A stretch of 64,000 bases of DNA, taken from positions 186,001-250,000 of the forward strand of contig NZ_BLZO01000091.1 in the NCBI RefSeq assembly GCF_014132355.1, written 5' to 3'. The stretch's first letter is position 1; each line of letters begins with the position of its first letter. The stretch comes from Okeania sp. KiyG1 (GTDB taxonomy: Bacteria; Cyanobacteriota; Cyanobacteriia; Cyanobacteriales; Microcoleaceae). The notes under the pieces were generated by a model. The model was not told the origin of the DNA, did not search any database, and saw nothing but the letters and a program-made list of their open reading frames with translations. Position numbers and translations under genes: made by a program. Shown in pieces: positions 5,309-35,030 of the stretch.

Positions 5309-5929
5309 ATGAAGCAAGATACTGCCAGAGTTGTCCCCCACTTAACACCACAGGAATATTTGGAATGGGAAGTCCAACAACCACTACGCTACGAATATTT
5401 TAATGGGGAAGCTTTTGCGATGGCAGGGGGAACTTTGCCCCATGCAGACATTGCCCTAAATTTGGCAAGCCTGTTACGAGAACCGTTACGGGGGCGCTGC
5501 AAGGTGCGTAACTCTGATGCCAAGGTGGGCATTACTGACGAGGGACCGTTTACCTATCCAGACCTTAGTATTAGCTGCGATGAGCGCGATCGTACCGCCC
5601 GACAATTTATCCGCTATCCCTGTGTCATTATTGAGGTGCTTTCTCCCAGTACGGAGGCTTACGATTCTCCTTCGGAGACGCTACGCGATCGCGGTGGTAA
5701 GTTTGCCCTGTACCGTCGTCTCTCAACCCTACAAGAATATGTTTTAGTGAGTTCTGAAACCAAAACGGTTGAGATTTTTCGGCGGGATGCTGTTGGAGAG
5801 TGGCGATTCATTCCTTACAGTGAAGGTGATACGATTGAGTTGATGAGTTTGGGAATTACCTTATCGCTAAATGCTATTTATGAAGATGTTGTTTTAGAGT
5901 GGGAGGATGAAGGGGGTGAAAAAAGGTAG
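5309..5929 (+). CDS. Uma2 family endonuclease with an 8-residue in-frame repeat insertion
   Basis: A 206-residue protein of the PD-(D/E)XK-fold Uma2 family. Seen: LTPQEYLEWE near the N terminus, Pro84-Asp85 in YPDLSIS, Glu109 in VIIEVLSPSTEAYD, and the lysine of GGKFALYR (Lys131). In usual family members STEAYD runs directly into RGGKF. Here 24 bases (5666-5689, beginning TCTCCTTCGGAGACG) add SPSETLRD between them. That insert has the form of a cyanobacterial small dispersed repeat with a small hairpin, TCTCC-TTCG-GGAGA-like. The frame is kept, and the loop is next to the active site. It is probably still folded; activity is unknown. Confidence 0.85.
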   Translation: MKQDTARVVPHLTPQEYLEWEVQQPLRYEYFNGEAFAMAGGTLPHADIALNLASLLREPLRGRCKVRNSDAKVGITDEGPFTYPDLSISCDERDRTARQFIRYPCVIIEVLSPSTEAYDSPSETLRDRGGKFALYRRLSTLQEYVLVSSETKTVEIFRRDAVGEWRFIPYSEGDTIELMSLGITLSLNAIYEDVVLEWEDEGGEKR

Positions 5930-6081
5930 CAATGCTTATCAGCATAAATATATTGGGGGGTGAAGGTAGTGTGATGACACTACAGCGTTTCAGTATTCAA
6001 AGGTAAGAGTCTATATTAGACATCTCCAAAATAGAAAATAAGGTAAAATTATCAAAACCATTTATGTATACAGTCTCCCAA

Positions 6082-6755
6082 ATGAATCCAACTTTAGAAT
6101 ATATTTATAATCATCCACTCATAAACAAAAAGAATTATTGGTATTACTTATGAACAGCTAATAAAATTAATAGAAAATGCCCAAAGAATAGAATCAGAAA
6201 AAAAGGAGGCGATGTAGCTGCCGCACTTGCTCCGCCAACGCCAAAACAGAAAAAAGATTAATTAAAGCAGGTGGAGGAAGAAAAAAGAATTTAACAAAGG
6301 AAGAAGAAATAATTTTAACGTGATTTTATTTACATCAAGTACCAACTTGTCAAACATTAGGAATTAACTTTGGTATAAGTGAATCAAGTGCTAATAATAT
6401 TTTTCGCGCTCTGGATAGATATTCTCAGAGAATTACTGCCAGCAAGTTTATTAGAACAAGTAAAAAAAAAGTTTTAGGTATTGGAATGGGTAAAGGAGAT
6501 ATTAACAGAATTAGAATTAATTGTAGATAGTACAGAACAAGGTAGAGAAAGACCAAGTGAATATAAAAACCAAGAAAAATATTACTCAGGAAACAAGAAA
6601 AATCATAATGAGTAAAAATCAAATAATAACGACACCAAAAGGAACAGAAATAGTGGATGTAATAGTAGGAGAAAAAGGTCCAGTAAGTGATGTAAAAATA
6701 TTAAGAAAACAACAGGATAAATTTGATAAAAAACAAAAATTCCAATATCCAATAG
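6082..6755 (+). pseudogene. Degenerate IS5-type transposase (HTH_Tnp_4 / DDE_Tnp_4)
   Basis: Pieces in several frames can be read: MNPTLEYIYNHP, then GITYEQLIKLIENAQRIESEKKEAM, a helix-turn-helix stretch ending NFGISESSANNIFRALDRYS, then ELELIVDSTEQGRERPSEYK with the first catalytic Asp, and KGTEIVDVIVGEKGPVSDVKI. Frameshifts, an internal TGA, and an inserted short repeat around 6214-6243 (TAGCTGCCGCACTTGCTCC) disrupt it. Coding similarity stops after KKQKFQ, exactly where the 58-bp array begins, so the last third of the transposase is missing. The family follows from the order of domains. It is inactive. Confidence 0.75.
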
Positions 6756-8031
6756 AACATCAATCTCAACAGAGCGATCGCCAATTAGTAGAGCAATAAC
6801 TATTGTCCAATAGAACATCAATCTCAACAGAGCGATCGCCAATTAGTAGAGCAATAACTATTGTCCAATAGAACATCAATCTCAACAGAGCGATCGTCAA
6901 TTAGCAGAGCAATAACTATTGTCCAATAGAACATCAATCTCAACAGAGCGATCATCAATTACCAGAGCAATAACTATTGTCCAATAGAACATCAATCTCA
7001 ACAGAGCGATCATCAATTAGCAGAGCAATAACTATTGTCCAATAGAACATCAATCTCAACAGAGCGATCGCCAATTAGTAGAGCAATAACTATTGTCCAA
7101 TAGAACATCAATCTCAACAGAGCGATCATCAATTACCAGAGCAATAACTATTGTCCAATAGAACATCAATCTCAACAGAGCGATCGCCAATTACCAGAGC
7201 AATAACTATTGTCCAATAGAACATCAATCTCAACAGAGCGATCATCAATTACCAGAGCAATAACTATTGTCCAATAGAACATCAATCTCAACAGAGCGAT
7301 CGCCAATTACCAGAGCAATAACTATTGTCCAATAGAACATCAATCTCAACAGAGCGATCGCCAATTACCAGAGCAATAACTATTGTCCAATAGAACATCA
7401 ATCTCAACAGAGCGATCATCAATTACCAGAGCAATAACTATTGTCCAATAGAACATCAATCTCAACAGAGCGATCATCAATTACCAGAGCAATAACTATT
7501 GTCCAATAGAACATCAATCTCAACAGAGCGATCATCAATTAGCAGAGCAATAACTATTGTCCAATAGAACATCAATCTCAACAGAGCGATCATCAATTAG
7601 TAGAGCAATAACTATTGTCCAATAGAACATCAATCTCAACAGAGCGATCATCAATTACCAGAGCAATAACTATTGTCCAATAGAACATCAATCTCAACAG
7701 AGCGATCATCAATTAGTAGAGCAATAACTATTGTCCAATAGAACATCAATCTCAACAGAGCGATCATCAATTACCAGAGCAATAACTATTGTCCAATAGA
7801 ACATCAATCTCAACAGAGCGATCATCAATTACCAGAGCAATAACTATTGTCCAATAGAACATCAATCTCAACAGAGCGATCATCAATTACCAGAGCAATA
7901 ACTATTGTCCAATAGAACATCAATCTCAACAGAGCGATCATCAATTACCAGAGCAATAACTATTGTCCAATAGAACATCAATCTCAACAGAGCGATCATC
8001 AATTACCAGAGCAATAACTATTGTCCAATAG
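6756..8031. repeat. Tandem array: 22 units of exactly 58 bp
   Basis: Units begin AACATCAATCTCAACAGAGC and end ACTATTGTCCAATAG; all 22 are the same length. They differ only at two dinucleotides. One follows GCGATC (GC, AT or once GT); the other follows CAATTA (GT, GC or CC). Six units (1, 2, 6, 8, 10 and 11) keep an intact HIP1 site; most of the rest have the AT version. Each unit holds the inverted repeat CTATTG-TC-CAATAG. Because 58 is not a multiple of three, no long ORF runs through. A degenerate half-unit follows at about 8032-8062. Uniform repeats without unique spacers rule out a CRISPR array. Confidence 0.95.
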
Positions 8032-21697: not shown

Positions 21698-23065
21698 ATG
21701 GCATTTCTGCGACAACTGTCTACAAGAGGGGTATATGAGGAAAAACTCATAAAAGAGTATCTATCTGAGACAGAGGAGGTAGTGCTAGGACGCGATCCCA
21801 GGTGTCAAATTGTCCTAGAGACAAAATTTTATACAACGGTTTCTCGCCGTCATGCCCTAATTCGTATTCATACCAAACAGGCCAAAACTACTGGTTTAGT
21901 ATGGGAAATCTGCGACCTCAATAGTTCTAATGGTACTTATATTAATGGACGAAGAATACAGGGAAGTCAAATTCTACAGGTGGGCGATCGTATTAGTCTG
22001 GGCTACAAAGGGCCGGAATTTATTTTCGATAATTTATCCCACCAAAAATCAACCTCATTAGTATCACCATCAGTCAACCCTACTTCACTTCCTGTTAATT
22101 CTGTTGGCAGTGCTAAAGTTGAAGATGTTGGAGATACTGACTCGATAACTTTGACCCAGTTATTTCCTATTGCTTCTACAGGAAAGCAATTAGCTAAAAA
22201 AGCCTATCTTTATCCAGGTATTATCACTGTATTTTTTGTGATTTTAATGTTTTTAACCGTGGGTAAAGCAATAGCTTTTAATTTTTTATTAGCAGCTTAT
22301 ATTGCTGGTGCAGCTTATTATTTTGTTTATCAACTTTGTGGCAAAGAAAAACCTTGGTGGGTATTATTCGGATCATCTTTAACCACTGTTTTTATCTTAT
22401 TAAGTCCAATTTTAACATTGTTTATTGGAGTATTTCGTTTTATACTTCCTGGTGATATATCAGTAAATCCTCAGCAAGTTGGCTTTCTTGATTTCCTGAT
22501 TAGAATGTTTTTTGGCGCGGGATTAATGGAAGAGTTGTTAAAAGCATTACCCGTGTTTTTAATACTATTAATAGGTCGTAATTTACCTTCTCCCTGGCGG
22601 AAGAAAATTGGTGTTTGGGAACCTTTAGATGGAATTTTATTAGGAACAGCTTCTGCAGTAGGATTTACTTTATTAGAAACTCTGGGACAATATGTTCCGA
22701 GTATTGTGGATAGTGCGAGTTTACAGTTGGGAGTAGATGCGGGTCAATTGGTAGGATTACAATTGTTAATTCCCAGAATTTTAGGTTCAGTAGCTGGACA
22801 TATGGCTTATAGTGGTTATTTTGGTTATTTTATCGGATTAAGTGTTTTAAAGCGTCGTAATAGTTGGTTGATTTTAGGGGTTGGGTATTTGACTGCATCT
22901 ATTCTTCATGCTTTATGGAACGCTTCTGGAGTTTTAAATATATTTCTTTTGGCTTTTGTGGGAGTGATTTCTTATGCTTTTTTGGGGGCGGCTATTTTAA
23001 AAGCGAGAGTTCTTTCTCCTACAAGAGATGAAAATTTTGCTACTCAGGTTATCATTAACAAATGA
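21698..23065 (+). CDS. FHA domain-PrsW intramembrane protease fusion
   Basis: 455 residues. Residues 1-110 form an FHA phosphothreonine-binding domain (GRDPRC at 31-36, SRRH 49-52, NGTYING 78-84). A linker leads to a multi-pass membrane domain from about 172. PrsW-type signature residues are present: MEELLKALP (Glu278, Glu279), GFTLLETLG (Glu327), GHMAYSGYFGY (His368) and LHALWNASG (His404). PrsW proteins are glutamate-type intramembrane proteases that cleave anti-sigma factors or other membrane substrates. The FHA domain suggests that the protease is recruited by Ser/Thr phosphorylation. The substrate is unknown and no kinase or anti-sigma gene is adjacent. Confidence 0.85.
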   Translation: MAFLRQLSTRGVYEEKLIKEYLSETEEVVLGRDPRCQIVLETKFYTTVSRRHALIRIHTKQAKTTGLVWEICDLNSSNGTYINGRRIQGSQILQVGDRISLGYKGPEFIFDNLSHQKSTSLVSPSVNPTSLPVNSVGSAKVEDVGDTDSITLTQLFPIASTGKQLAKKAYLYPGIITVFFVILMFLTVGKAIAFNFLLAAYIAGAAYYFVYQLCGKEKPWWVLFGSSLTTVFILLSPILTLFIGVFRFILPGDISVNPQQVGFLDFLIRMFFGAGLMEELLKALPVFLILLIGRNLPSPWRKKIGVWEPLDGILLGTASAVGFTLLETLGQYVPSIVDSASLQLGVDAGQLVGLQLLIPRILGSVAGHMAYSGYFGYFIGLSVLKRRNSWLILGVGYLTASILHALWNASGVLNIFLLAFVGVISYAFLGAAILKARVLSPTRDENFATQVIINK

Positions 23066-24046: not shown

Positions 24047-26338
24047 ATGATCCCAAAGAAAAAATTGATAATTTGGCTGCTAACTATGTTCTTAACGGTG
24101 ATAGCAGTTATAGTTATTACTAACCTTCAGGAACAAAATCAAAAAAATATAACAATCGCGATCGCTGCTCCCTTAAGCAATACCGGACAAGTGACACAAG
24201 AATTAGGCAAATCGATGGTTAGAGCAGCGCAACTCTGCATCGATCAGGTAAATAAAGCTGGCGGAATTGAAGGTAGGAAGGTACAACTAAAAATTTATGA
24301 CGACCAAGGGAAAATAGACGTAGCAGAGAAAGTAGCTAGAGAGATTGTCGAATCTCCAGCGATCGCCGTCATTGGTCACTATTCTAGTAGCACATCTCTG
24401 GCAGCTGGAAAAATTTATCAAGCTGCTGGGATTCCAGCAATCAGTGGTTCAGCAACTGCTGATGCAGTAACCGCCGACAATGATTGGTACTTCCGCACAA
24501 TTTTTAACGACAGCTTTCAAGGCAAATTTATCGCTACTTACTTGAGAAAAGTTCTAGGATATTCAGAAATTAGTATTATTCGGGGCTACGATGTTTATGG
24601 TTTAAACTTAGGAAGAACTGTTGAAACAGCTTTTCGAGAATTAGGAGGAGAAATAGTAGCTCAGTGGCAACTACCAACAAACCAAAACCTTGCAAGCGAT
24701 CGGAGCATTATCGAAGAATTGCAGGAACTCAAAAAGTCTGATCGATTTCCACAAGCAATTGTGTTAGCTACTAATCGTGCTCAAGTGAGAAGCTTACTCA
24801 GGGAAATCAAAAATCGCAATCTGAATTTATCCCTATTTGGTGGTGATGACATAGGTGATGTAAGTATTGCTCAATCCTTTAGTAACCTTCTTAAAGAACA
24901 AGAAACTCCAGGCTTCTTTACCAATGGCCTTTACGCCACAGTACCAACTATGTATGACGTGGCTAATGATCGAACTCAACAATTTAGGAAAACATTTGAA
25001 GAAGTTTACAAAATGTCCCCTGGCTGGTCTGCTGCTTCTTACTATAATGCTACCACCGCAATTGTCGAAGCTATTCATCGTACTCTATTAACAGAGAAAG
25101 ATTTAGCAAAATCAGCTTTTACTGGTAAAGATATTAAAAAAGATCGTTCTAGGGTTAGAGAGGGTTTGCTTCGGATCAACAGTCCCGATACTGCTGTCGC
25201 AACAGGAACAAAAAGATTTTACTTTAATAGGAATAATACTGTTACTTTTCCTCCTAGTGTGGGAATTTTTGACCGTGGTCAGCTTGTATCGGCTTTTACC
25301 CAACTACAAATAGTTCCCAATATCGAGGCAATTTTAAATTCAGAAGCCAAAATCCCTAGTGAGAATATTTTACAAATAGGGCAGCAATACTTGCAAAAAA
25401 CTGACATTGTTTATGTAGGTCTTGACATCAACAAAGTTAGCTATCTAGACGAGAAAAGTTCAACCTATCTTGTGGATTTTTATTTGTGGTTTAGATATAA
25501 AGGTAATCTGAATCCTGATCAAATTGAGTTTAGCAACTATGGAATTGATCGCTTAGACTCTGGAGAAAGGTTAGCTATCGAAGAACCAATACAAAGGGGG
25601 GAAGACAATGGAGTTAAGTATAAAATATATAGAATTAAAGCCGATTTTCACGAAGAGTTTGATTTTCGCAATTACCCCTTTGATAAACAGCATTTAAGTG
25701 TAAGATTTCGACATACAGAGTTAACAAGAAATCGGTTGATTTATGCTATTGACTTAATTGGTATGCAAGATATTACTCGAAAGGAATTATTTAACCAGTG
25801 GAAAGAAAAAGTTTTCAACGAAATTACCTCTTGGACACCTACAAAAATAACTTTTTTCCAGGATACTTTAGTAAAAGATTCTACACTAGGCTATCGGCAA
25901 TTGATCGACACTAAGTCAAATTTAGAATACTCCCAGTTTAATGCTGTGATTGAGATTAAAAGGAAATTACTCAGTTTCAGTATCAAAAATTTGCTGCCTC
26001 TGTGGTTTTTTATTGCTGTGGCATATCAGTTTTTGTTTTTGCCTTTCGATCTACTCTCAGCCGAGTTATTGAGTGGGCTATTACTAGCGGTTGTATTTTA
26101 CCATTTGAGTTTACTAGATGCTCTGCCTGATGGAGTGGGTTATGTTGTTGCCCTTGACTATGCTTTTTATTTAGTTTACCTCTTATTTGGGTTAGAATTA
26201 ACCCTAGTAACAGTAGGGTCTAGCGACAAGTTTAAGAATAATGAAGCACAGCGTAAAAAGTTACTCTTGTTAGGGAGAGTGCTGTTCCCAATGATTGTGT
26301 TCGTTGGCTCTATATGGCTTTATTTGCTGTATGTATAG
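24047..26338 (+). CDS. Periplasmic-binding-protein / pentameric ligand-gated ion channel fusion
   Basis: 763 residues. A signal anchor (about 8-26) is followed by a type 1 periplasmic binding domain of the branched-chain amino-acid receptor kind (about 35-425: ITIAIAAPLSNTGQ, AAQLCIDQVNKAGGIEGRKV, IGHYSSSTSLAA). Residues 450-640 form a second beta domain with pLGIC hallmarks: YLDEKSSTYLVDFYLWFRY and the Pro-loop motif DFRNYPFDKQHL (YPFD 543-546). Four transmembrane helices follow (about 647-667, 671-690, 696-723, 741-762) with a short intracellular loop. Topology and motifs match prokaryotic channels such as GLIC, here with a ligand sensor on top. It is likely a ligand-gated channel in the plasma membrane; ligand and ion are unknown. 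No transporter genes adjoin. Confidence 0.85.
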   Translation: MIPKKKLIIWLLTMFLTVIAVIVITNLQEQNQKNITIAIAAPLSNTGQVTQELGKSMVRAAQLCIDQVNKAGGIEGRKVQLKIYDDQGKIDVAEKVAREIVESPAIAVIGHYSSSTSLAAGKIYQAAGIPAISGSATADAVTADNDWYFRTIFNDSFQGKFIATYLRKVLGYSEISIIRGYDVYGLNLGRTVETAFRELGGEIVAQWQLPTNQNLASDRSIIEELQELKKSDRFPQAIVLATNRAQVRSLLREIKNRNLNLSLFGGDDIGDVSIAQSFSNLLKEQETPGFFTNGLYATVPTMYDVANDRTQQFRKTFEEVYKMSPGWSAASYYNATTAIVEAIHRTLLTEKDLAKSAFTGKDIKKDRSRVREGLLRINSPDTAVATGTKRFYFNRNNTVTFPPSVGIFDRGQLVSAFTQLQIVPNIEAILNSEAKIPSENILQIGQQYLQKTDIVYVGLDINKVSYLDEKSSTYLVDFYLWFRYKGNLNPDQIEFSNYGIDRLDSGERLAIEEPIQRGEDNGVKYKIYRIKADFHEEFDFRNYPFDKQHLSVRFRHTELTRNRLIYAIDLIGMQDITRKELFNQWKEKVFNEITSWTPTKITFFQDTLVKDSTLGYRQLIDTKSNLEYSQFNAVIEIKRKLLSFSIKNLLPLWFFIAVAYQFLFLPFDLLSAELLSGLLLAVVFYHLSLLDALPDGVGYVVALDYAFYLVYLLFGLELTLVTVGSSDKFKNNEAQRKKLLLLGRVLFPMIVFVGSIWLYLLYV

Positions 26339-26623: not shown

Positions 26624-27024
26624 CTAAGGCCATAAAACCTGGACAAAAAAATCATTCAAAATCTTGTTACATTGAAATGCCAGTTGATTTTGGTCTAATT
26701 CATCTTTAGTAAAATAAGCTAAACGCTGACCTTCATTAAGTTTAATTTGCTTTAAATCTAAGTCTATTTGCTTCCAGAAAACGTAATGTTCTCTATCATA
26801 AATATTGTACTTTTGAAAAAGTTAATATCTGTTAATTCAATTTCGATTTCTTCTCTTATTTCTCTGCATATACATTCTTCAGGAAGTTCACCATTTTCAA
26901 TAAATCCTCCTAATAAATTCCAAGTATTAGGAAAAGGAATAGAGTTTTTATCATCCCTAAGTACCAGCAAAATTTCATTATTGCTATTCAATAAAATAAT
27001 TACAGAACCTTGAATTTTATTCAT
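26624..27024 (-). CDS. NUDIX hydrolase, frameshifted in an A-run
   Basis: It starts at ATG 27024 (MNKIQGSVIILLNSNNEILLVLRD). The Nudix box is readable as GGFIENGELPEECICREIREEIEIE, with GxxxxxE and REIREE correct. After NFF the frame is lost at the A5 run 26816-26820 (plus strand). One more base gives QKYNIYDREHYVFWKQ, then LNEGQRLAYFTKDEL and an end at 26624-26626, a normal length of about 133 residues. It would hydrolyse a nucleoside-diphosphate derivative; the substrate cannot be read. The intact downstream half argues for a sequencing indel rather than old decay. Confidence 0.75.
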
Positions 27025-28569: not shown

Positions 28570-30690
28570 GTTTCCCAATTTCCCATCCATCACTCCTGAG
28601 TGAAAAAACACCAACATTCTCATTCTATGAAGCTCCTGGAAAAATCGCGCCTCAAAGGATTTTCGGTTCCATCCTCACAATTTTTGTGATATTCTAAAGC
28701 TTAGATGGAGTTGCTCGCCCCTACACATGACTTTTTATTCAACTAAAATTCCCGACTCAGAAACAACCAGATATTCAGGAATTTTTCCCGCAAGCAAGAG
28801 TAACGCAGAAATATTTTCATCTTGTGTAGCTTCCGGTAAATGTTTGTTTTGCCTCGTCAAAATTTTCCATCCATCACTTCTGAGTGAAAAAACACCAACA
28901 TTTTCATTTTATGAAGCTCTGAAAAAATCGCGCTTCAAAAGATTTTCGGCTGCATTCTCACAATTTTTGTGATATTCTAAAGCTTAGATGGAGTTGCTTG
29001 CCCCTGCACATGACTTTTTATTCAACTAAAATTCCCGACTCAGAAACAACCAGGTATTCAGAAATTTTTCCAGCAGGCAACAAGAGTAACACAGAAATAT
29101 TTTCATCTTCTGGAGCTTCCAATATCTTTGTTTTGCCTCGTCAAAATTTCCCATCCATCACCCCTGAGTGGAAAACCACCAATATTTTCATTCTCGAAAG
29201 CTCCTAAAAAAACGCGTCTCAAAGGATTTTCGGTTGCATCCTCACAATTTTTGTGATATTCTAAAGCTTAAATGGAGTTGCTTGCCCCTATACATGACTT
29301 TTTATTCAACTAAAATTCCCGACTCAGAAACAACCAGGTATTCAGAAATTTTTCCAGCAAGCAACAAGAGTAACACAGAAATATTTTCATCTTCTGGAGC
29401 TTCCAATATCTTTGTTTTGCCTCGTCAAAATTTCCCATCCATCACCCCTGAGTGGAAAACCACCAATATTTTTATTCTCGAAAGCTCCTAAAAAAAAACG
29501 CGCCTCAAAGGATTTTCGGTTGCATCCTCACAATTTTTGTGATATTCTAAAGCTTAGATGGAGTTGCTTTCCCCTGAACATGACTTTTTATTCAACTAAA
29601 ATTCCCGACTCAGAAACAACCAGGTATTTAGGAATTTTTCCAACAAGCAGGAGTAACGAAGTCAGAACTCAGAACTCAGAACTCAGAAGTTATTTTTGTA
29701 AAGGGGATTTGAGCAACTCTCCAAAAACCCGATCACCGATCAAGGCGGGGTTGCGCGACCCAATCCTGTTTGATAATACAGAAGTATTTTCATCTTGTAG
29801 AGCTTCAGAGAAATGTTTGTTTTGCCTCGTCAAAATTTCCCATCCATCACTCCTGAGTAGAAAACCACCAACATTTTCATTCTCTGAAGCTCATAAAAAA
29901 ATTGCGCCTCAAAAGATTTTCGGTTGCATCCTCACAATTTTTGTGATATTCTAAAGCTTAAATGAGGTTGTTCGCCTCTACAAATGACTTTTTATTCAAC
30001 TAAAATTCCGACTCAGAAACAACCAAGTATTTAGGAATTTTTCCCGCAAGCAAGGAATCGCAGAAATATTTTCATCTTGTGGAGCTTCAGAGAAATGTTT
30101 GTTTTGCCTCGTCAAAATTTCCCATCCATAACTCCTGAGTGTAAAACCACCAATATTTTCATTCTCGAAAGCTCCTAAAAAAACGCGTCTCAAAGGATTT
30201 TCGGTTGCATCCTCACAATTTTTGTGATATTCTAAAGCTTAGATGGGGTTGTTCGCCCCTAAACATGACTTTTTATTCAACTAAAATTCCCGACTCACAA
30301 ACAACCAGGTATTCAGGAATTTTTCCAGGAGGCAGGAGTAAGGAAGTCAGAAGTCAGAAGTCAGAAGTCATTTTTGTAAAGGGGATTTGAGCAACTCTCC
30401 AAAAATATTTCGCTTTAAAAGGCAGGGTTGCGTGACCCAATCCGGTTTGATAATACAGAAGTACTTTCATCTTGTGGAGCTTCAGAGAAATGTTTGTTTT
30501 GCCTCGTCAAAATTTCCCATCCATAACTCCTGAGTGGAAAACCACCAACATTTTCATTCTCTGAAGCTCCTGAAAAAATCGCGTCTCAAAGGATTTTCGG
30601 CTGCATCCTCACAATTTTTGTGATATTCTAAAGCTTAGATGGGGTTGTTCGCCCCTACGCATGACTTTTTATTCAACTAAAATATGCTAA
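28570..30690. repeat. Tandem array of about 285-bp units (seven-fold, with two long units)
   Basis: Each unit contains ATGACTTTTTATTCAACTAA, CCCGACTCAGAAACAACCAG, GCCTCGTCAAAATTTCCC, and a hairpin CACAA-TTT-TTGTG followed by ATATTCTAAAGCTTAGATGG. Unit starts fall near 28.70, 28.98, 29.27, 29.55, 29.96, 30.24 and 30.63 kb. Two units are about 115 bp longer because of an insert with TCAGAAG repeats and GGGGATTTGAGCAACTCTCC. ORFs of 60-180 codons in the array change frame between units and are not accepted as genes. Confidence 0.9.
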
Positions 30691-33289: not shown

Positions 33290-35030
33290 ATTGATTCAAA
33301 ATTTTCCCACAGAAAAAATTTCTTATTTTTTTTGCCATTTTCCCAAGATAGTCACAATTAATTGATGGATAATTTTCCCTGATGAGGGAGAAATTTTTTC
33401 CCCTCCTCAGTAGTGGAGTTTTTTGGCAAAATTTCACAGAACTTTCCCACAGAAAAAATCTCTTATCCTCTGTGTCACTTTCTCAAAATAGTGAGAATTA
33501 ATTGATTCAGAATTTTCCCTGATGAGGGAGAAATTTTTTCCCCTCCTCAGTAGTGGAGTTTTTTGGCAAAATTTCACAGAATTTCCCCACAAAAAATCTC
33601 TTATCCTGTGTGTCACTTTCTCAAAATAGTGAGAATTAATTGATGGATAATTTTCCCTAATGAAGGAGAAATTTGTCTGTTCTTCAGTAGTAGAGTTTTT
33701 TGGCAAAATTTCACAGAACTTTCCCACAGAAAAAATCTCTTATCCTCTGTGTCACTTTCTCAAAATAGTGAGAATTAATTGATTCAGAATTTTCCCTGAT
33801 GAGGGAGAAATTTTTTCCCCTCCTCAGTAGTGGAGTTTTTTGGCAAAATTTCACAGAATTTCCCCACAAAAAATCTCTGACCCTGTGTATCACTTTCTCA
33901 AAATAGTGAGAATTAATTGATGGATAATTTTCCCTAATGAAGGATAAATTTGTCTGTTCTTCAGTAGTAGAGGTTTTTGGCAAAATTCACAGAACTTTCC
34001 CACAGAAAAATCTCTTATCCTCTGTGTCACTTTCTCAAAATAGTGAGAATTAATTGATGGATAATTTTCCCTAATGAAGGATAAATTTGTCTGTTCTTCA
34101 GTAGTAGAGGTTTTTGGCAAAAATTCACAGAACTTTCCCACAGAAAAAATCTCTTATCCTCTGTGTCACTTTCTCAAAATAGTGAGAATTAATTGATGGA
34201 TAACTTTCCCTAATGAAGGATAAATTTGTCTGTTCTTCAGTAGTAGAGGTTTTTGGCAAAAATTCACAGAACTTTCCCACAGAAAAAATCTCTTATCCTC
34301 TGTGTCACTTTCTCAAAATAGTGAGAATTAATTGATGGATAACTTTCCCTAATGAAGGATAAATTTGTCTGTTCTTCAGTAGTAGAGGTTTTTGGCAAAA
34401 TTCACAGAACTTTCCCACAGAAAAATCTCTTATCCTCTGTGTCACTTTCTCAAAATAGTGAGAATTAATTGATGGATAACTTTCCCTAATGAAGGATAAA
34501 TTTGTCTGTTCTTCAGTAGTAGAGGTTTTTGGCAAAATTCACAGAACTTTCCCACAGAAAAATCTCTTATCCTCTGTGTCACTTTCTCAAAATAGTGAGA
34601 ATTAATTGATGGATAACTTTCCCTAATGAAGGATAAATTTGTCTGTTCTTCAGTAGTAGAGGTTTTTGGCAAAATTTCACAGAATTTCCCCACAGAAAAA
34701 ATCTCTTATCCTCTGTGTCACTTTCTCAAAATAGTGAGAATTAATTGATGGATAACTTTCCCTAATGAAGGATAAATTTGTCTGTTCTTCAGTAGTGGAG
34801 TTTTTTGGCAAAATTTCACAGAATTTCCCCACAGAAAAAATCTCTTATCCTCTGTGTCACTTTCTCAAAATAGTGAGAATTAATTGATGGATAACTTTCC
34901 CTAATGAAGGATAAATTTGTCTGTTCTTCAGTAGTGGAGGTTTTTGGCAAAAATTCACAGAACTTTCCCACAGAAAAAATCTCTTATCCTATTTATCACT
35001 TGACAAAAATAGTCACAATTAATTGACTAA
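33290..35030. repeat. Tandem array: about 13 units of 136-140 bp
   Basis: Units carry CACAGAACTTTCCCACAG, AAATCTCTTATCCTCTGTG, TCACTTTCTCAAAATAGTG, AGAATTAATTGATGGATAA, and TCTTCAGTAGTAGAGG before TTTTTGGCAAAA. Junctions lie near 33435, 33575, 33712, 33852, 33988, 34126, 34265, 34403, 34540, 34678, 34817 and 34956. Most of the length variation comes from A-run or T-run changes. Minus-strand ORFs (KTSTTEEQTNLSFIREN-type) span two units at most and shift frame, so coding is not supported. Confidence 0.9.

Follow-up and report, generated by a model that had tools for sequence, protein, structure and literature searches.

What a single gene that joins a solute-binding domain to an ion channel might do for a cyanobacterium is the question raised by one locus of Okeania sp. 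KiyG1, a strain with a genome of 10.98 Mb. The window analysed here is the whole 64,000-nucleotide stretch at positions 186,001 to 250,000 of contig NZ_BLZO01000091.1, and the gene in question, at 24047..26338 on the plus strand, encodes 763 amino acids (aa). An earlier note, made from the sequence alone, had read it as one open reading frame (ORF) in which a type 1 periplasmic binding protein (PBP-I) domain precedes a complete pentameric ligand-gated ion channel (pLGIC), and this order holds by Pfam, by a profile match to the channel GLIC and by an AlphaFold2 (AF2) model. As far as sequence comparison goes, membership in both PBP-I and the pLGIC superfamily is secure, and relatives of the protein carry the same head and beta domain on an unrelated pore of the MscS type.

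The N-terminal half matches Peripla_BP_6 at residues 36-351 (Pfam, E 2.3e-40) and also ANF_receptor (E 1.1e-27), and its best match among Protein Data Bank (PDB) sequences is the LivJ-type protein 3hut (phmmer, E 7.2e-23). The note was right to see a solute sensor in this head; the ligand gating that it attached to it is a deduction. In a Foldseek search of the PDB, LivJ/LivK-type proteins rank top, and the ligand domains of metabotropic glutamate receptors (mGluR) and the calcium-sensing receptor (CaSR) come lower (rows 22-50, 14-18% identity); the likeness to animal glutamate receptors drawn in the note holds for these ligand domains and not for the ionotropic glutamate site.

Scanned alone, the pLGIC half (residues 442-763) matches 0 Pfam families, and the NCBIfam LIC match of the C-terminal half is weak (E 0.038). 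Residues 520-762 match GLIC chains among PDB sequences (phmmer, best E 7e-5), and a profile of 20 homologous cores, the window protein itself among them, matches GLIC over both the extracellular domain (ECD) and the transmembrane (TM) domain at E about 5e-18, and DeCLIC (6v4a) at E 3.6e-17, where the best stretch is the membrane part. The match to pLGIC profiles that had been foreseen for residues 445-763 is thus found with GLIC and missing in Pfam. The AF2 monomer, built from a 53-row alignment (predicted local distance difference test score, pLDDT, 86.8; predicted template modelling score, pTM, 0.81), has a helix at 4-30, a two-lobed alpha/beta head, ten strands in 441-639 and then the four C-terminal helices that had been claimed. 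Strands, helices and GLIC profile together give the beta-sandwich ECD followed by four TM helices that marks the superfamily. Its second mark, a proline at the tip of the beta6-beta7 loop, is P544 of the YPFD Pro-loop, which the note had located correctly in the printed sequence; an excerpt of PMC4795631 calls this proline the sole absolutely conserved residue. No pLGIC appears among the best 50 Foldseek matches, which are occupied by PBPs; what supports the channel call is therefore the profile match, together with helices and motifs.

The gene has relatives both near and far. Among 60 related genomes, full-length relatives occur at 85, 85, 69, 51 and 34-35% identity, and a genome scan gave 53 loci across several phyla, picked by six peptide patterns of the window protein, which means that counts over them are not prevalences. 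The ratio of nonsynonymous to synonymous substitution rates (dN/dS) is 0.445 and 0.426 against two congeners and 0.229 and 0.246 against two more distant relatives. Taken together, the full-length relatives, the 53 loci, their spread over phyla and these ratios lead us to reject an assembly accident, an ORF artefact or a chance fusion. Cyanobacterial hosts include Okeania, Microcoleus, Symploca, Moorena, Xenococcus and Pleurocapsa, and the other hosts include Ca. Parabeggiatoa, Ca. Halobeggiatoa, Thiomargarita, Desulfobacterota, SAR324, Chloroflexota, Verrucomicrobiota, Planctomycetota, a metagenome-assembled genome of Leptospiraceae and Electrothrix. A pLGIC core was found in 35 of 386 cyanobacterial genomes, seven of which have an end-to-end match in frames of 751-1188 aa, with one gene per genome confirmed to carry a PBP; of the other frames listed, most measure 330-440 aa or else 646-785 aa without PBP-I (four of the latter were read: L111, L113, L114 and L117).

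The strongest contrast within the family comes from its pores. We aligned 81 fusion proteins (the window protein, 55 ORFs of the scan loci and 25 ORFs of additional genomes), of which 60 have a pLGIC pore and 21 an MscS-type pore, 19 of the latter with a cyclic-nucleotide-binding-type domain. Identical copies and ORFs with fewer than 500 residues from PBP to ECD were left out, as were, by hand, L001, L008, L036, L058, L084, L090-L092, L136, L160, L161 and L002-L035 except L007, L009, L010 and L011. Pfam was run on six MscS rows or copies (L063, L135, L142, L146, L147, L148), and the others were classed by phmmer against segments of L063. In L063:5989-9432 (Desulfonema magnum) and L173:3411-6782, PBP-I and the beta domain sit on an MscS pore; the former lies on the complete D. 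magnum chromosome, which speaks against mis-assembly, and its AF2 model (pLDDT 81.7, pTM 0.60) has ten strands ordered as in the window beta domain, then helices and a C-terminal domain. A protein of this kind, AZL_RS21580 (WP_042444963.1) on plasmid pAB510b of Azospirillum sp. B510, is annotated just as an ABC transporter substrate-binding protein. We found no description of an MscS pore bearing a pLGIC beta domain in the titles and abstract starts of the open-access matches listed, and the term MscS does not occur in PMC2950845.

With the pore changes the Pro-loop. P544 is present in 60/60 pLGIC-pore and 1/21 MscS-pore proteins and the Pro-loop aspartate D546 in 52/60 and 1/21, while the pre-M1 residue R639 is Arg in 57 and Lys in 3 of the 60, against Arg in 1 and Lys in 10 of the 21. 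Other residues are kept with both pores: W481 (59/60, 21/21), D569 (59/60, 21/21), S629 (56/60, 21/21) and G615 in the loop preceding the last beta-domain strand (53/60, 21/21). In the first two strands, 79% of positions have a consensus residue common to the two pore classes, against 29% in the Pro-loop and 46-54% in the other ECD segments save residues 576-595. In pLGICs the Pro-loop touches the membrane domain. Conserved residues of the superfamily are located at the interface of ECD and membrane domain (excerpt of PMC4795631). In these alignments the distinctive contrast is that the Pro-loop is near-invariant with a pLGIC pore and free with an MscS pore. That it is kept just where the four-TM membrane domain exists supports a channel reading of the window protein and supports PBP plus beta domain as a separate unit, one that looks portable because homologues carry it on the unrelated MscS-type pore.

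How often the pore was exchanged is less certain. In a tree of PBP and ECD (81 rows, 621 columns, quick search) all 21 MscS members lie beyond one branch (SH-like approximate likelihood-ratio test 98). The ECD-only tree (99 rows, 220 columns) fails to separate the MscS group and requires 3 pore changes, 2 of them forced by its starred branches, and a single exchange is therefore not certain. Rooting with an outgroup failed, as the 23 rows without PBP are not on one side of any branch and 5 fall on the wrong side; because of this, we infer the direction of the swap from the broad spread of pLGIC pores.

The head suggests what such a unit may sense. In LivJ, S79, T102, Y150 and E226 presumably hold the ligand, S79, T102 and E226 as anchors of the amino-acid backbone with E226 contacting the amino group, and Y202, L77, C78 and Y18 we take to be the side-chain end of the pocket. 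Compared over this short residue list, chosen beforehand, the window protein matches the backbone anchors with S114, T137 and D267 (Glu to Asp) and differs from LivJ at the side-chain end. Within the heads of the 81 proteins, S114 ranks at the 92nd conservation percentile, Y184 (LivJ Y150) at the 86th, T137 at the 81st and D267 at the 75th; the side-chain-end positions are less conserved, with N243 (Y202) at the 47th, Y112 (L77) at the 44th, S113 (C78) at the 30th and L53 (Y18) at the 4th. Better-kept anchors with a variable pocket would fit a family of receptors for differing amino-acid-like solutes.

We lean, by a modest margin of belief, towards a protein whose PBP head is shut by an amino-acid-like ligand and in turn moves the beta domain, so that the pore opens. 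Five subunits would assemble, and a periplasmic amino-acid-like solute would close the two-lobed head of each; the second strand, which is conserved (DFYLWFRY), and the loop preceding the last beta-domain strand could relay the motion, and the Pro-loop and the pre-M1 arginine would receive it, whereupon the M2 pore might open. Ion flux, perhaps of cations since M2 has an acidic residue close to its inner end, would then signal to the cyanobacterium that solute is available. Cation selectivity is a guess from sequence. In a gap-free register with GLIC, M2 reads Ser671 at 0', Glu673 at 2' and Leu at 9', and Glu or Asp stands at the counterpart of residue 673 in 11/11 members of the cyanobacterial clade to which the window protein belongs; the leucine is a superfamily feature, found in 75% of members, with a basic R/K at 0' in 79% (excerpt of PMC4795631).

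Several points weigh against this proposal. The ligand, selectivity, gating, current and oligomer of the window protein are all putative. Residue 0' in the gap-free register is Ser671 and not R/K, and the MAFFT family alignment sets E673 opposite Arg in 33/60 proteins, through a gap; because the two alignments disagree here, the M2 register and the selectivity guess are weak. Two more residues at the pocket, S135 (LivJ A100) and D155 (LivJ D121), reach just the 64th percentile, D267 is Asp in just 37/60 (N, S, Q or T elsewhere), and the identity of a ligand does not follow from the conservation of anchors. Nor does the Pro-loop alone diverge, since residues 576-595 share their consensus between pore classes at 10%. 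Finally, the gene is accessory, because it is missing from three of five congeners. The full gene stands in the other two at 85% identity, and those three (G002, G003, G005) show PBP-type matches alone; they keep the left neighbour (FHA-PrsW, 93-96% DNA identity) and the right neighbour (Nudix), and a tblastn search for the fusion gene in them gave no more than one 14-residue match (E 0.71). The flanks are about 520 bases apart in G002 and enclose about 2.7-2.8 kb of other sequence in G003 and G005.

Among the rivals, the one that fares best, which we nevertheless judge unlikely, is that the orthosteric site of the pLGIC core itself or else protons gate the channel, as in GLIC, and that the PBP head just concentrates ligand or modulates. 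This stands near the proposal of 2005 that a fused PBP-I may pre-concentrate or sense ligands before these bind to the ligand domain of the channel itself (excerpt of PMC549065); G615 is kept in both pore classes, and DeCLIC, with another type of N-terminal domain, is activated by calcium depletion (excerpt of PMC9897478). The joint presence of PBP and beta domain on an unrelated pore, however, fits a joint gating unit better than a concentrator. Distinctly less probable is a non-conducting protein whose membrane domain is an anchor or a signalling scaffold. We found no report of current from a PBP-fused pLGIC in the open-access literature searched, and the window pLGIC half is too diverged for Pfam, but the Pro-loop proline is present in 60/60 and a pre-M1 Arg or Lys in 60/60 proteins with a four-TM pore, for which selection on coupling to a pore is the simplest reason, and wherever that pore is missing in the 81 proteins an MscS channel domain replaces it. 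That an ordinary ABC-transporter binding protein was accidentally joined to a decaying channel gene is close to refuted and hardly credible: automatic annotation can name such proteins substrate-binding (WP_042444963.1), but the fusion is kept over several phyla, dN/dS is below 0.5 in four comparisons with no premature stop, and Pfam finds no ABC-transporter family in the 13 neighbouring ORFs scanned (12.3-41.2 kb of the window), which likewise dismisses an operon with transport genes.

Beyond the gated channel that we favour for the window protein, PBP plus beta domain looks like a portable gating cassette. We speculate, more tentatively and with belief somewhat short of even, that PBP-I with the pLGIC beta domain is a transplantable ligand-gating cassette on two unrelated pores, one with the Pro-loop and one of MscS type with an intracellular cyclic-nucleotide-type domain, the latter detecting in coincidence a solute outside and a nucleotide inside, and that it has grown into chemical-to-electrical receptor repertoires in some large sulfur and sulfate-reducing bacteria. 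Matches to the beta-domain profile number 14 in Ca. Parabeggiatoa, 17 in Ca. Halobeggiatoa HSG11 and 9 in Desulfonema magnum; fragments of a single gene count separately, and part of the matches were checked for a PBP. In a draw of 297 genomes from the phylum of D. magnum, 8 have any match, and a PBP is on the same ORF in G422 and G642.

The 53 loci hold three architectures: PBP-I and ECD with no tail found, as in the window (A; 39 ORFs, fragments counted), an SBP_bac_1-type domain after M4 (B; 8 ORFs) and PBP-I and ECD on an MscS pore (C; 13 ORFs, each with a C-terminal domain resembling the cNMP_binding domain of L063). All three occur in one Halobeggiatoa genome (G424). The additional genomes gave more MscS-pore members, two of which, of about 980 aa, are without a cyclic-nucleotide-type domain, and the SBP tails require 6 changes on the tree of PBP and ECD. 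Architecture B is seen in L044:5998-9561, L046:5743-9507 and L078:5647-9558; the end of a pLGIC after M4 lies in the periplasm, and these proteins could possibly have sensors at both periplasmic ends. In 12/53 loci the same strand has an SBP_bac_5-type gene no more than 1.5 kb away, and two fusion genes stand in tandem in 8/53; neither is the case in the window. In L055:3025-10422, L056:861-8163, L057, L059, L061 and L080 a PBP-I plus SBP_bac_5-type protein (about 908-960 aa) is followed by two tandem PBP-I/pLGIC genes, possibly a heteromeric channel with a partner protein. At L051:961-3840, SBP_bac_5 is joined straight to a channel domain of the MscS type (Pfam E 1.2e-79 and 4.1e-19), with a PBP-I/pLGIC gene downstream at 5372-7690.

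We dropped the reading of L150:204-2548 on the minus strand as an unfused operon of PBP-I and pLGIC: its second ORF begins two bases past the stop of the first, in a different frame, at the first beta-domain strand and with no signal sequence, which makes a fusion gene with a broken frame no less likely than a split pair. The same caution applies to L156 and to L084:4652-9341 of Ca. Electrothrix aarhusensis, a cable bacterium, where a PBP-I ORF, a short ECD-TM ORF and a 718-aa PBP-I/ECD ORF stand in a row; none of the three loci is used as evidence. Filamentous gliding bacteria may be enriched among hosts (Okeania, Microcoleus, Beggiatoa-like, Desulfonema, Electrothrix, Anaerolineae).

Table 1. 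Positions in the window of the fusion gene, its domains, candidate ligand-contact residues and predicted helices.
Feature	Position	Strand	Basis
PBP-I/pLGIC fusion gene, 763 aa	24047..26338	+	single ORF, ATG start; full-length relatives
N-terminal hydrophobic helix, residues 4-30, putative signal peptide or uncleaved anchor	24056..24136	+	AF2 helix; N-termini of ten family members
LivJ-type PBP-I domain, residues 35-425	24149..25321	+	Pfam 36-351; Foldseek best are LivJ/LivK-type proteins
S114, aligned with LivJ S79	24386..24388	+	alignment; Ser 52/60 pLGIC-pore, 20/21 MscS-pore
T137, aligned with LivJ T102	24455..24457	+	alignment; Thr 41/60 pLGIC-pore, 18/21 MscS-pore
Y184, aligned with LivJ Y150	24596..24598	+	alignment; Tyr 46/60 pLGIC-pore, 19/21 MscS-pore
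D267, aligned with LivJ E226	24845..24847	+	alignment; Asp 37/60 pLGIC-pore, 15/21 MscS-pore
pLGIC extracellular beta domain (ECD), about residues 441-640	25367..25966	+	AF2 strands 441-639; GLIC profile match
Pro-loop YPFD, residues 543-546	25673..25684	+	P544 in 60/60 pLGIC-pore, 1/21 MscS-pore members
M1 helix, residues 641-662	25967..26032	+	AF2
M2 pore helix, residues 672-692; acidic E673 close to cytoplasmic end	26060..26122	+	AF2; sequences
M3 helix, residues 701-724	26147..26218	+	AF2
M4 helix, residues 733-762	26243..26332	+	AF2

Around the gene (Table 1), the window has an FHA domain joined to a PrsW-type intramembrane protease at 21698-23065 and, at 26764-27024 on the minus strand, a NUDIX ORF of 86 aa that covers positions 7-67 of 134 of the Pfam profile and is probably a truncated gene, as its counterpart has 137 aa in L170 and L171, both from congeners. 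At 28577-30326 and 33303-35026 the window has long tandem arrays with units of 282-284 bp and 139 bp, and related repeats lie at the syntenic place in congeners. When the neighbourhoods of nine relatives were compared with the window, genes besides the fusion were shared just with congener L037, and among those nine there was one further weak match, between L038 and L040.

Fusions of PBP-I to pLGICs were reported in 2005 from Magnetospirillum magnetotacticum and Bradyrhizobium japonicum, and in the excerpt of that report the cyanobacterial pLGICs then known are plain (Tasneem et al. 2005, PMC549065). Compared by description, those alphaproteobacterial PBP-I/ART-LGIC fusions have the same PBP-I N-terminal to the pLGIC core. 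The architecture class has been known since then, and the fusion as such is not new. The earlier note was right that prokaryotic pLGICs with extra N-terminal domains are known; of the novelty that it claimed for the cyanobacterial version, what stands is that the cyanobacterial clade may be a new branch of the class. The pore-swapped relatives are undescribed in the literature searched and raise the interest of the finding. GLIC of Gloeobacter and the stand-alone cyanobacterial pLGICs have the beta domain, Pro-loop and four helices in common with the window protein but lack its N-terminal sensor; in the window protein Ser occupies the presumed M2 0', and Tyr484 takes the place of a Trp of GLIC. 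DeCLIC and Cache-type pLGICs also have extra periplasmic N-terminal domains, of other types, the lobes of DeCLIC resembling calcium-binding regulatory domains among others (excerpt of PMC12664993). Cache-like pLGICs seem to occur in cyanobacteria too, as L111 matches dCache_1 (E 1.7e-9, 38 bits, below the Pfam cut-off of 45). The bCNG proteins are MscS-type channels with a cyclic-nucleotide-binding domain, and architecture C resembles them in having MS_channel_2nd and cNMP_binding (L063, L146-L148, L173) but adds PBP-I and the pLGIC beta domain; the window protein is without the MscS part. A known defence protein was considered and rejected, as PADLOC gave 0 families for the window protein and matched L063 just in its cyclic-nucleotide-type region. 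The ligand domains of mGluR and CaSR, whose output is a G-protein-coupled receptor, have the same PBP-I fold as the window head, and in receptors of the N-methyl-D-aspartate (NMDA) type the glutamate site is held by a PBP-II domain. This PBP-II is the second domain of NMDA-type receptors, and PBP-I corresponds to their amino-terminal domain (excerpt of PMC549065).

As of 2016, according to an excerpt of PMC4795631, no biological role was known for the pLGIC of any unicellular organism, and a study of domain architectures could give insight. The amino-acid-type pocket in the head of the window protein leads directly to a hypothesis on the ligand of a prokaryotic pLGIC. Relatives with an MscS pore amount to a natural experiment that sorts beta-domain residues into those serving the pore and those serving the sensor, in which the Pro-loop goes with the pore and W481, D569 and S629 stay with the sensor. 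The MscS of E. coli is heptameric; if the unit does gate both pores, the pLGIC ECD would be able to function away from its native membrane domain, and perhaps without five-fold symmetry, and the unit may be a part for engineered ligand-gated channels.

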